From assembly GCA_958295895.1 (NCBI GenBank), contig CATQHI010000032.1, forward strand, positions 1-64,000: a stretch of 64,000 nt of DNA. Reading direction: 5' to 3'. Position numbers and translations under genes: made by a program. Positions 15,464 to 19,143 of this stretch are shown here, piece by piece. Source of the DNA: Saprospiraceae bacterium (GTDB taxonomy: Bacteria > Bacteroidota > Bacteroidia > Chitinophagales > Saprospiraceae). The notes under the pieces are model-generated. The model was not told where the DNA came from. It saw nothing but the letters and a program-made list of their open reading frames with translations, and ran no database searches. Every line of letters begins with the position of its first letter. The first letter of the stretch is position 1.

Positions 15464-16600
15464 TTAGTCAAACCGTAATTTAAAGTATACCCGCACCGGC
15501 CCGGATTGATCCGATACCTCCCAGGCAGAAGATTCGACCAACGTCGTACCCACGTAGTCCATCGTCGCCCGGTCGGGCTGGCCCCGGAAGCGGAAGTCGG
15601 TCAGCGTCCCGTCGGGCTGCACCAAAAAACTCACCCGCACCTTCCCTGCCGGCACCCCCTCCGGCCGGCCGGCCTCGATGCGTTCGCGCAGCTGGCGGTA
15701 TCCTTCTACGGGTAGGGCCCGGCTTTGTTGTTTGATCAGGGGCTCCATGGTGATCTCGGCCCGTGCTGCATTTTCCGCAAAAGCATCTGCCCCCGCCCGT
15801 GAGGCTAGCGGCGTCAGTCCGATCTGCAACTGCTCGTCCACTCCAAAGAGCTCCACGGTCTCCTGCTCGTAGCCGGCGGCGCGTACCATGATCTCGTTGA
15901 GCGTCCGGTCCTGCGGTAGTCGGAAAACGCCGTTGCTATCCGTACGTTCACCCAGGGCCTGGCCTAGCCGTAGCACCTCGGCTCCTACAATAGGGTTGCC
16001 CTCCTCATCCGTCACCTCACCGGTCAGCGGCGGGGGTGGGGCGGGCAGGGTAGGGGTCTCGGTAGCTGCCCGTGGGGCAGGGGCCGACAGCGGTGTAATT
16101 TTGCGGACGGAGGCGGTATTTGCCACCTCCGCGGGTGCTTCCCCGGCAGCCTCCTCTTTCGCCACTTCTTCTACGGGCGCGGCGGTGGATTGGGGCGGGG
16201 CCGCAGGTGCAGCGTCATTGGGCAGGGGCGTAGGGGGCGCTGCCGGCACCGGAGCACGCCGTTCGAGGGCAATCTCAGCCTCGTCACCCGCAGCGAAATA
16301 CTGGGGCAGCAACCACACGGACAGGCCCAGTAGCGTCGCCACGCTGGCGGCAATCGCGTAGGTGGTGTAGCGGGCCCGTGTGCGGGGTACGGCCTTTAGC
16401 CCCGGTTGCACCCGTTCCATCATCCTGGCGATGTGCGCCTGGTGATCGGCCTCGGGGGCGGCTTGCAGTCCGACGAGTGCCTCCCGAAGTTCCGGTTCGC
16501 TCTGGGCACGCCGCTCCAGCTCCGCCTCTTCCGGCGCAGTGATCGCCCCGCTGATCCAGCGGCGCAGGAGGTCCTCGCTTTGGTGGTCCTTAGTTGACAC
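15464..16600 (-). CDS. anti-sigma-like membrane protein with CarboxypepD_reg-like and TonB C-terminal-like domains
   Basis: N-terminal acidic helical region + single TM (YAIAASVATLLGLSVWLLPQYF), 'LTGEVTDEEGNPIVGAEVLRLG...TDSNGVFRLP', C-terminal 'GKVRVSFLVQPDGTLTDFRFRG'; overlaps the ECF sigma stop. Confidence 0.75.
   Translation of the reverse strand: MSTKDHQSEDLLRRWISGAITAPEEAELERRAQSEPELREALVGLQAAPEADHQAHIARMMERVQPGLKAVPRTRARYTTYAIAASVATLLGLSVWLLPQYFAAGDEAEIALERRAPVPAAPPTPLPNDAAPAAPPQSTAAPVEEVAKEEAAGEAPAEVANTASVRKITPLSAPAPRAATETPTLPAPPPPLTGEVTDEEGNPIVGAEVLRLGQALGERTDSNGVFRLPQDRTLNEIMVRAAGYEQETVELFGVDEQLQIGLTPLASRAGADAFAENAARAEITMEPLIKQQSRALPVEGYRQLRERIEAGRPEGVPAGKVRVSFLVQPDGTLTDFRFRGQPDRATMDYVGTTLVESSAWEVSDQSGPVRVYFKLRFD
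16193..16214 (+). repeat. dispersed 22-nt motif copy (in linker of anti-sigma/TonB-like gene)
   Basis: GGGCGGGGCCGCAGGTGCAGCG. Confidence 0.85.
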
Positions 16601-17168
16601 GGGGGGAGTCGGTTTCGGGGGCGTCGGCGGCCTGGGCTTCCAGGCACCGCTTCAAGTTACGCCGGCCGTTCTGTAGATGAGAACGCACCTGCCCTACACT
16701 TAGATTTAAGTTGGCGGCGATGGACTGGTAGCTATGCCCCTCCGCCAGGTAGAACAGGTGGATGCAGCGGCGTTGTGCGTCGCCGAGTTCTTTCATGCAA
16801 CGGTGTAGGGGGCGGGTATCGTCATCGGTAGCATTATCTAATGGATGCTGAAACTCGGCCAATTGCATAAGTCCGTCGTCAGCCCCGGTCAGCGCTAGGG
16901 GGTCGCGCTGCTCCCGGCGCAGCTGCATCAGGCAGTGGTTGCGCACCAGCGTCTGGAGCCAGGAGCCGAAATTACCTACCTCGTGCTCCGGCAGCTTAGC
17001 CAGCAGGATCGGGAACACCTCCGCACCTGCGTCCTCCGCCCGCTGTGGTGTACCGAGGTAGCGCAGGCACCAGCCGTAGATGCGTGCGGCGTAACGCTGG
17101 TAGAGGGGCAGCAGCTCCCGGGGGGTGGGGGAGCGGCGGAAGCGGTCGAGGAGTTCGGCGTCCGACAT
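16590..17168 (-). CDS. RNA polymerase ECF-type sigma-70 factor
   Basis: MSDAELLDRFRRSPTPRELLPLYQRYAARIYGWCLRYL...AEDAGAEVFPILL...HSYQSIAANLNLSVGQVRSHLQNGRRNLKRCL; start trimmed from 17321. Confidence 0.87.
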   Translation of the reverse strand: MSDAELLDRFRRSPTPRELLPLYQRYAARIYGWCLRYLGTPQRAEDAGAEVFPILLAKLPEHEVGNFGSWLQTLVRNHCLMQLRREQRDPLALTGADDGLMQLAEFQHPLDNATDDDTRPLHRCMKELGDAQRRCIHLFYLAEGHSYQSIAANLNLSVGQVRSHLQNGRRNLKRCLEAQAADAPETDSPRVN

Positions 17169-17183
17169 CCCGCAAAGTACAAT

Positions 17184-17198
17184 GCTGCCTCCGGCAGC
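17184..17198 (-). repeat. REP-like triloop hairpin unit 1
   Basis: GCTGCC-TCC-GGCAGC; on the minus strand GCTGCC-GGA-GGCAGC followed by ATTGTAC. Confidence 0.75.
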
Positions 17199-17209
17199 AC
17201 CAGCAAAAT

Positions 17210-17224
17210 GCAGCCTCTGGCTGC
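17210..17224 (-). repeat. REP-like triloop hairpin unit 2
   Basis: GCAGCC-TCT-GGCTGC; on the minus strand followed by ATTTTGCTGG. Confidence 0.75.
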
Positions 17225-17258
17225 GCTGGCTGTTTCTGCTAAATTTAAAACTATTTGT

Positions 17259-17948
17259 ATGTTTACATTGAATAAAACACAAATAGTGAGAATCCAACAC
17301 ATCACCCACACCCCCATCCACCTCACCTACCGTCTCTACGGTAGTATCCCCAATCTCCCCCTCCAGAAACTACATAGTAGCCTATGCTACAAAAAGCTAC
17401 GCCTGAAGCAACAGCTCGATCAGGCTCGGCAACGCAAAGACCGGGAAGAGATAGACCGGTACCGAAGTGCGCTGACCCATACAGAGATCGACCACTATCT
17501 TCAATACGATAACCTCCTCGACCGCCCCGTAGGGGGACCGGCCTACCTTGTGGATGAGCGCGCCAAGCGCATTGTCATAGCCTCCTGGCACCATATTGCT
17601 CACCAGCGCGGACTGCACATTTATGCGATCAGCGTCATGAGTAATCATGTGCATGTACTGTTAGAAACAGTTGATGAAGAAACCCAAGTAAATCTCCCAC
17701 AGATTCTGGAGGATCACAAAAAGTATACGGCTACTCAATTGAATAGACTCCACGGTACGAAAGGCCGCCGTGTGTGGGCGGAAAAAGAGTATTGCCGGGA
17801 GGTGCGGCGGGGTACGTTTGAGCAGGTGCTCTGGTACGTGCTCAGTAATCCGGTGAAGGCCGGACTGACGGACGAGCCGCTAAGCTGGGTAGGGAATTGG
17901 TGGAATAAGGAGGTGTACGCGAGTTTCATAGCCACTCGGGTGGCTTAA
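17259..17948 (+). mobile_element. REP-associated tyrosine transposase (RAYT / Y1_Tnp, IS200-like)
   Basis: 'IYAISVMSNHVHVLLE' (HUH motif) and 'VLWYVLSNPVKAGL' blocks typical of RAYTs; flanked on both sides by REP-like hairpins in inverted orientation; start trimmed from 16935. Confidence 0.85.
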
Positions 17949-17950
17949 GC

Positions 17951-17965
17951 GCAGCCGGAGGCTGC
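17951..17965 (+). repeat. REP-like triloop hairpin unit 3
   Basis: GCAGCC-GGA-GGCTGC followed by ATTTTGCTGG; near-perfect inverted copy of unit 2. Confidence 0.8.
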
Positions 17966-17976
17966 ATTTTGCTGGC

Positions 17977-17991
17977 GCGGTCGGAGACCGC
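17977..17991 (+). repeat. REP-like triloop hairpin unit 4
   Basis: GCGGTC-GGA-GACCGC followed by ATTGTAC. Confidence 0.8.
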
Positions 17992-18002
17992 ATTGTACTA
18001 CC

Positions 18003-18017
18003 GCGGTCGGAGACCGC
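18003..18017 (+). repeat. REP-like triloop hairpin unit 5
   Basis: GCGGTC-GGA-GACCGC followed by ATTGTAC; direct repeat of unit 4 with 26-bp period. Confidence 0.8.
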
Positions 18018-18060
18018 ATTGTACGGGCAAACAATTCAGCAGACAGCCGGTACTACCACC

Positions 18061-19143
18061 ATGAACGAACATACCTACGTAGCCATAATGGCCGGTGGCG
18101 TCGGCTCCCGCTTCTGGCCCGCCAGCCGGGAAGACAAACCCAAGCAATTCCTCGATATCGCCGGCGATGGCCGCAGCCTGCTGCGCATGACCTTCGACCG
18201 CTTCCTGAAGCTCACCTCGGCCGATAAGATCTTCATCGTCACCAACGATAAGTACAAGCAACTCGTCAAGGACCACCTGCCCGAGGTCATCGACCAGCAG
18301 ATCCTCTGCGAGCCCAGCCGCAACAATACCGCCCCCTCGGTGGCCTACACCGCCTTCAAGCTGCACGGTATCGACCCCAAGGCCAACTTCGTGATCGCCC
18401 CCAGCGACGCGCTCATCGTCAACGACACCCTCTTCACCGCCAACATCAACAAGGCTTTGCGCTTCACGGCCGAGAACGACGCCCTCCTCACCCTGGGCAT
18501 CTCCCCCGACGCCCCCCACACGGGCTACGGCTACATCCAGTTCCTCGACGAGCAAACAAATACCGACGACGTCTACCGCGTCAAGCGCTTCACCGAGAAG
18601 CCCGACCTACCCACCGCTAAGAGCTTCCTCAAATCCGGCGACTACCTCTGGAATGCCGGTATTTTCATCTGGCGCGCCCGGACCATCCTCGACGCCTACG
18701 AGCAGTACGCCCCCGATATCTACGCCCTCCTTAGCCAGGGCCTCGACCGCTACAACACCGACCAGGAACAGGCCTTCATCGACGAGTTCTACCCCCAGAC
18801 ACCCAGCATCTCCGTCGACTACGCCATCATGGAGAACGCCGACAACATTTACACCATTCCCGCCCAGTTCGGCTGGTCGGACCTCGGGGCCTGGGGCGCG
18901 CTCTACCACGAGAGCAATAAGGATAAGGACGGTAACGTCCTCACCGGCCGCGTCGTCCTTGAAGATACCCACAACAGCTTCATCCGCGGCCCCAAGGACA
19001 AGCTCGTCGTCGTCGGCGGCGTAGACGATCTACTGGTCATCGATGAGGGTGATGTGCTGCTGGTCTATCCCCGTAACCGCGAGCAAGAAATTAAGGCGTT
19101 GCGGGCGCGGGTGGAGGAGCTGCATGGGGAGGGGTATGTGTAG
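18061..19143 (+). CDS. manC: mannose-1-phosphate guanylyltransferase
   Basis: 'AIMAGGVGSRFWPASREDKPKQFLDI', 'FTEKPDLPTAKSFLKSGDYLWNAGIFIW', 'SVDYAIMENADNIYTIPAQFGWSDLGAWGAL'. Confidence 0.9.
   Translation: MNEHTYVAIMAGGVGSRFWPASREDKPKQFLDIAGDGRSLLRMTFDRFLKLTSADKIFIVTNDKYKQLVKDHLPEVIDQQILCEPSRNNTAPSVAYTAFKLHGIDPKANFVIAPSDALIVNDTLFTANINKALRFTAENDALLTLGISPDAPHTGYGYIQFLDEQTNTDDVYRVKRFTEKPDLPTAKSFLKSGDYLWNAGIFIWRARTILDAYEQYAPDIYALLSQGLDRYNTDQEQAFIDEFYPQTPSISVDYAIMENADNIYTIPAQFGWSDLGAWGALYHESNKDKDGNVLTGRVVLEDTHNSFIRGPKDKLVVVGGVDDLLVIDEGDVLLVYPRNREQEIKALRARVEELHGEGYV

Follow-up and report, generated by a model that had tools for sequence, protein, structure and literature searches.

A single-copy RAYT and a family of head-to-tail REP hairpins in Neolewinella-group Bacteroidota

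A RAYT gene and its hairpins

The locus described here comes from a marine bacterium and very probably belongs to a RAYT-REP (REPtron-like) system of Neolewinella-group Bacteroidota, in which a single-copy, domesticated RAYT would spread hairpins in trans. RAYT/REP systems are well known, and we arrive at this reading because the hairpins have further copies in the genome, co-occur with the RAYT, lie between genes, show covariation of their stems and turn over at their sites. The initial annotation had already proposed a RAYT with REP hairpins, an assignment that is now strongly supported by the HUH/Y motifs, Pfam, the fold match to 4er8, the additional copies and the co-occurrence with the RAYT.

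Inspection of the window, i.e. the whole stretch of 64 000 nucleotides that was analyzed, reveals five 15-nt hairpins around one gene for an HUH/Y1 transposase of 229 aa (17259–17948, plus strand; assigned by Pfam Y1_Tnp and an AF2 model). All five were found just as initially annotated, with the same stems, GGA loops (AGA in unit 2) and the tails ATTGTAC or ATTTTGC. For the description of the units we chose the reading strand such that the conserved unpaired bases sit 5′ of the stem, as is the usual REP convention. A choice based on hairpin stability was dropped, since the two hairpin strands hardly differ in DNA folding energy (−6.3 to −6.6 kcal/mol), which hence does not indicate the active strand. 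Read in this way, the outer left unit 1 (17176–17201, plus strand; hairpin 17184–17198; 41.9 bits with the covariance model R1 introduced below) has the sequence A-GTAC-AAT-GCTGCC-TCC-GGCAGC-ACC and is followed head-to-tail, with a step of 26 bp, by the inner left unit 2 (17202–17227, plus strand; hairpin 17210–17224; 40.4 bits), which reads A-GCAA-AAT-GCAGCC-TCT-GGCTGC-GCT. On the right side and on the minus strand lie the inner unit 3 with a GCAA foot (17948–17973; hairpin 17951–17965; 42.4 bits), whose GCT end reaches into the RAYT gene by one base, the last of its stop codon, and units 4 (17974–17999; hairpin 17977–17991; 42.5 bits) and 5 (18000–18025; hairpin 18003–18017; 37.8 bits), both of which possess a GTAC foot and the stem GCGGTC/GACCGC. 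The opposite orientation of the two left and the three right units, as well as the inner inverted repeat of about 28 nt, had been recognized before and both hold, the repeat being identical at 26 of 28 positions. The gene is neighbored on the left by a gene for a sigma-70-family factor, ECF-like by our reading (16590–17168, minus strand; from the ORF list and tblastn in the loci of relatives), and on the right by a mannose-1-phosphate guanylyltransferase-like (manC) gene (18061–19143, plus strand; from the ORF list and tblastn).

The protein resembles REP-associated tyrosine transposases

The protein carries the features that characterize RAYT/TnpAREP proteins, namely an HUH motif (NHVH at residues 129–132), a single catalytic tyrosine in a Y-x-x-x-N-P motif (Y193 within YVLSNP, which reads YVLNNP in the orthologs) and a Y1_Tnp domain with a Pfam score above the cut-off; W173 is followed by A174. 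Its best NCBIfam family is REP_Tyr_transpos (REP-associated tyrosine transposase, NF047646; E = 3.5e-15), matched at E ≤ 0.001 by 21 of 21 aligned relatives, and its score of 56.1 bits lies below the curated cut-off of 80 bits, which is a threshold of the model and not a biological feature. The AF2 model (pLDDT 88.5) contains the HUH core and, after β1, an insertion of 57 residues (32–88) that forms a two-helix hairpin (residues 32–59 and 62–88) between strand 1 and helix A. Among PDB folds the model agrees best with 4er8, in which the E. coli RAYT is complexed with a REP hairpin and which also ranked first in the profile search; the transposases of ISDra2 and IS608 are matched by the structure as well.

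In the E. coli RAYT, Gln95 belongs to the region by which GTAG is read (PMC6006769), and the alignment shows an alanine at the equivalent position in 9/9 of the orthologs. A link between this replacement and the foot GTAC/GCAA instead of GTAG is no more than suggested. When the feet of about 40 RAYT loci were called automatically, the fourth foot base was G or A in 14 of 15 loci with a WQ motif and in 1 of 6 with WA; a simple code relating the residue after the conserved tryptophan to this base was kept only as a lead, because of ambiguous loci, a crude foot caller and the relatedness of the loci.

The repeat is a 26-nt unit that mostly occurs as a head-to-tail doublet

The repeat exceeds the 15-nt hairpin. 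On the strand opposite to that of the GGA loops it comprises 26 nt (A-GTAC-AAT-hairpin-GCY), and it is mostly doubled head-to-tail. The consensus is A-GTAC-AAT-GCNGYC-TCY-GRCNGC-GCY, with GCAA, GAAA and GTAA as other feet. Over 95 units of the same genome the foot is G-[T65 C20 A9 G1]-A-[C59 A35 G1], and this pattern differs from the 5′ GT[AG]G tetranucleotide of the strict REP definition. Columns 2 (G), 4 (A), 7–8 (AT), 9–10 (GC), 15 (T) and 22–23 (GC) are invariant in these units, which were collected by a regular expression that itself fixed some of these columns.

Among 78 clusters, 36 consist of a single unit and 42 of several, and in 33 of the latter two units simply follow each other head-to-tail at a 26-bp step. 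An alignment of 29 doublets holds at least 0.5 bit at positions 1–52 and about 0.1 bit outside, so that the 52-nt doublet has sharp ends (A-GTAC...GCT); beyond these ends the same alignment contains no information and thus no conserved target site. The feet within a doublet differ, the first unit almost always having GTAC and the second mainly GCAA or GAAA. Known REP dimers are mostly inverted. Among adjacent pairs within 330 bp in six genomes, however, 213 have the same and 15 the opposite orientation (213/228, 93%), so that the inverted doublets by which REPINs and BIMEs are recognized are the exception here; in Pseudomonas fluorescens SBW25, by contrast, 93% of the REP doublets are inverted (PMC3116915).

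The initial annotation had also pointed to compensatory changes in the stems, and covariation is indeed detected, at two of the six pairs when units of this genome are compared and at four of the six when species are compared, in alignments that lean towards structure. The covariation is hence real, though concentrated in some pairs.

Copies are numerous and lie between genes

In the 4.77-Mb genome we counted 93 occurrences of the half-motif GGA-N6-ATTKTRC and 8 of a reversed control, and in 80 fetched matches that were anchored on the 3′ half alone the left arm is perfectly complementary in 56 and has one mismatch in 10, which places the hairpins clearly above chance. A covariance model (R1), derived solely from this genome (47 distinct units), yields at least 129 matches at E ≤ 0.1 and at least 143 at E ≤ 1, a count that may be too low because 150 candidates per genome were scored. 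Hence, the further copies of which a lack would have spoken against the initial annotation do exist, about 130 by this model. Based on the fetched loci and a rough home-made gene caller, 57 of the 59 clusters sampled lie between genes, in a genome in which about 85% of the bases are coding. The elements are in this respect REPs, i.e. extragenic palindromes in many copies, and the RAYT is, as in known systems, a single-copy, non-mobile gene with inverted flanking REPs and dispersed copies elsewhere.

Many copies lie only a few bases away from the predicted end of a gene. This position and the perfect GC-rich hairpins, together with the influence that REPs can have on mRNA in other bacteria, would suit regulatory or terminator-like RNA elements that are kept at gene ends for the host, with the RAYT being incidental. 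Against such a role, 18 of the 59 clusters lie between divergent genes, no Rfam family matches the hairpins, and conservation extends to the unpaired AGTACAAT foot and the fixed 26-nt step. Moreover, several orthologous sites are without the element and the repeats follow the RAYT ortholog exactly in 21 congeneric genomes (see below). We thus regard an RNA element as highly improbable and a RAYT/REP system as the better reading. At locus L054 of this genome, near position 1500, the upstream gene apparently stops at a TAA supplied by the REP foot (AGTAAAAT), whereas in the sister species it ends in a TAG of its own.

The repeats track a syntenic RAYT ortholog across the genus

The RAYT or an ortholog of it is present in nine genomes of the genus, among them Neolewinella litorea, N. 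xylanilytica, N. maritima and N. aquimaris. The orthologs are 50–65% identical to the protein of the window, and the nine RAYTs form one clade with a support of 0.99. The manC gene adjoins the RAYT gene in 9/9 carriers and the sigma-factor gene lies on the other side in 8/9. In the eight congeners with a syntenic ortholog the covariance model finds at least 12–115 copies each, whereas 0 copies were found in 12 congeners without the ortholog and 0 in 20 more distant genomes of the order. Presence of the repeat hence tracks the RAYT ortholog exactly (9/9 versus 0/12), contrary to the initially considered case of copies unrelated to the RAYT. The probability of this distribution would be about 3 in a million under independence, yet ManC is 83–93% identical to that of this genome in carriers and 71–79% in the non-carriers examined, which suggests that the carriers are one clade and that the co-occurrence may reflect a single gain or loss. 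Most non-carriers possess other RAYT paralogs, some of them flanked by other hairpins. In N. agarilytica (L083/L132), a paralogous RAYT lies between tandem arrays of about 124 bp that contain a GTAA foot and hairpins of several kinds.

The constant position at manC also bears on the question whether the locus might be an ordinary insertion sequence of the IS200/IS605 type with derived MITEs, mobile as a whole and not a domesticated RAYT. IS608 and ISDra2 have the HUH/Y1 chemistry in common with the present system and likewise carry hairpins on the same strand at either end; the direct hairpin arrangement is reminiscent of these left and right ends, and the transposases of both elements were matched by the structure. 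For an IS of this kind, the transposase gene should recur at several sites as part of the element copies, but the gene described here is present once per genome, and the sole other Y1 protein in the genome analyzed is an IS200-type transposase; the gene does not move with the hairpins, and its best profile and fold match is a RAYT. An ordinary IS accordingly has, in our estimation, a chance even slimmer than that of the RNA element.

The RAYT tree places the protein (17259–17948) with those of N. marina, N. litorea and N. xylanilytica, against ManC and the sigma factor, by which N. maritima is the nearest species. Compared to N. maritima, the RAYT is 54.5%, ManC 93% and the sigma factor 72% identical. 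These sequence comparisons make an in-place replacement or a very fast change of the RAYT possible.

With its ManC this similar, N. maritima also served for a comparison of insertion sites. Ten orthologous intergenic sites could be aligned, about 4 of which carry REP-like units in both genomes and about 6 are without an element in N. maritima. One of the ten, locus L054, contains an insertion of about 150 nt, cleanly bounded on its left, that is absent from the neighbor species. Since the difference at some of the shared sites is larger than a clean doublet, the boundaries of the doublet are supported mainly by aligned copies and less by empty sites.

A possible mode of dispersal

By analogy with characterized RAYTs (PMC8266576), the protein would bind the hairpin in single-stranded DNA with the 5′ foot as a guide, and Y193 would cut. 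The recognized strand would be the one with a 5′ A-GTAC-AAT (or GCAA/GAAA) foot, a 6-bp stem, a 3-nt TCY loop and a GC(Y) end. From the same family we infer that mobilization proceeds by ssDNA cleavage; the cuts would lie close to the A-GTAC and GC-T ends, with subsequent movement as ssDNA. The hairpins would thereby be dispersed in trans to intergenic sites while the RAYT gene itself stays immobile, and the usual spreading unit would be the 52-nt head-to-tail doublet of a GTAC-foot unit followed by a GCAA- or GAAA-foot unit. Such a doublet would resemble a minimal IS200/IS605 element with left- and right-end hairpins on the same strand. We tentatively raise the idea, which may well prove wrong, that the doublet is itself the mobile unit, IS200-like with different guide feet, which a RAYT with a foot-matched change of Gln95 to Ala would cut out and reinsert as ssDNA. 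If so, this REP system would have kept the left-end/right-end logic of its IS ancestor and not the inverted form of REPINs.

Comparison with known RAYT/REP systems

Bacteroidetes RAYTs have been published as TnpAREP subclasses 2.4 and 2.6, with flanking REPs or 'atypical structures' (PMC6006769), and short perfect-palindrome REPs with 3–4-nt loops, spaced feet and stems that differ at orthologous RAYTs have likewise been described (PMC8266576, PMC3686654, PMC2817692). Thus, Stenotrophomonas maltophilia possesses short perfect REPs with 3-nt loops and Marinomonas has spaced feet and 4-nt loops (PMC8266576), with similar elements in Pseudomonas (PMC3686654). The triloop is therefore not new, and the initial view of under-described minimal triloop REPs can be retained only in part: what does depart from the published pattern are features absent from that annotation, i.e. 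the foot other than GT[AG]G, the head-to-tail doublets with sharp ends and the two-helix hairpin after β1 near the N-terminus.

The RAYT fits none of the published subclasses exactly. Group 3 RAYTs, or subclass 2.5 (S. maltophilia, Marinomonas REPtron Mb and fluorescent Pseudomonas), share with the present system short perfect palindromes with 3–4-nt loops, a tetranucleotide foot at or 2–3 nt before the stem, several stem types and dispersal in trans; a published REP of the P. fluorescens group, GTAGGAGCTGCCGAAGGCTGCGAT, exemplifies this type (PMC8266576, PMC3686654). Their foot, however, is GT[AG]G instead of GTAC/GCAA/GAAA, their doublets are inverted, and the protein described here has NHVH, WA and YVLxNP motifs in addition to the 57-residue insertion. 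Subclass 2.4 (Bertels RAYT group 4; Cyanobacteria and Bacteroidetes) is similar in its NH[IFV]H and YIxNNP-like motifs, its occurrence in Bacteroidetes and its double-foot palindromes, a few copies of which occur here as well (PMC6006769), but has WQ in place of WA, long REPs, an HUH-Y distance of about 88 instead of about 62, and a REP inside the gene, which the present gene lacks. Subclass 2.6 (RAYT group 5, Bacteroidetes) shares the phylum and non-canonical flanking structures with genomic copies (PMC6006769); its αC-β4 insertion and YIH[QN]NP motif are both absent from the RAYT, which in the tree falls outside the clade of analyzed proteins that bear them. REPINs and BIMEs of Pseudomonas and E. 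coli, finally, resemble the present elements in that the doublet appears to be the spreading unit and singles are probable remnants (PMC3116915). In the largely open-access literature searched, we found no account of dominant head-to-tail REP doublets or of a GTAC foot with such a type of protein.

The system touches on the way in which REPs spread and on the reason for the inverted orientation of REP doublets in other organisms. A clade with one syntenic RAYT, direct sharp-ended doublets and a different foot offers a natural comparison, which separates possible chemical needs of RAYTs (a hairpin and a G-x-A foot) from what may be a habit of lineage (GTAG and inversion), and its nine diverged enzyme-substrate pairs are available for specificity tests.

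Composite and atypical copies

Some copies in the genome deviate from the simple doublet. At L065, L068 and L045 the palindrome has a 'double foot' (GTACAAT...ATTGTAC), near-complete or partial, as has been published for subclass 2.4. At L040, L014, L049, L054 and L057, a recurring mosaic segment (CTCCGGTCGCCGCCAGGGCGGCTCTC and a REP-like hairpin ending in TACGTCT) is joined to REP units, which results in composite elements of about 130–180 bp with the feet pointing outward. A second kind of hairpin, with a loop of GTA and a tail of the GCGGAACA type, is often attached to single REPs (e.g. L044, L059 and L072) and is perhaps a diverged partner unit.
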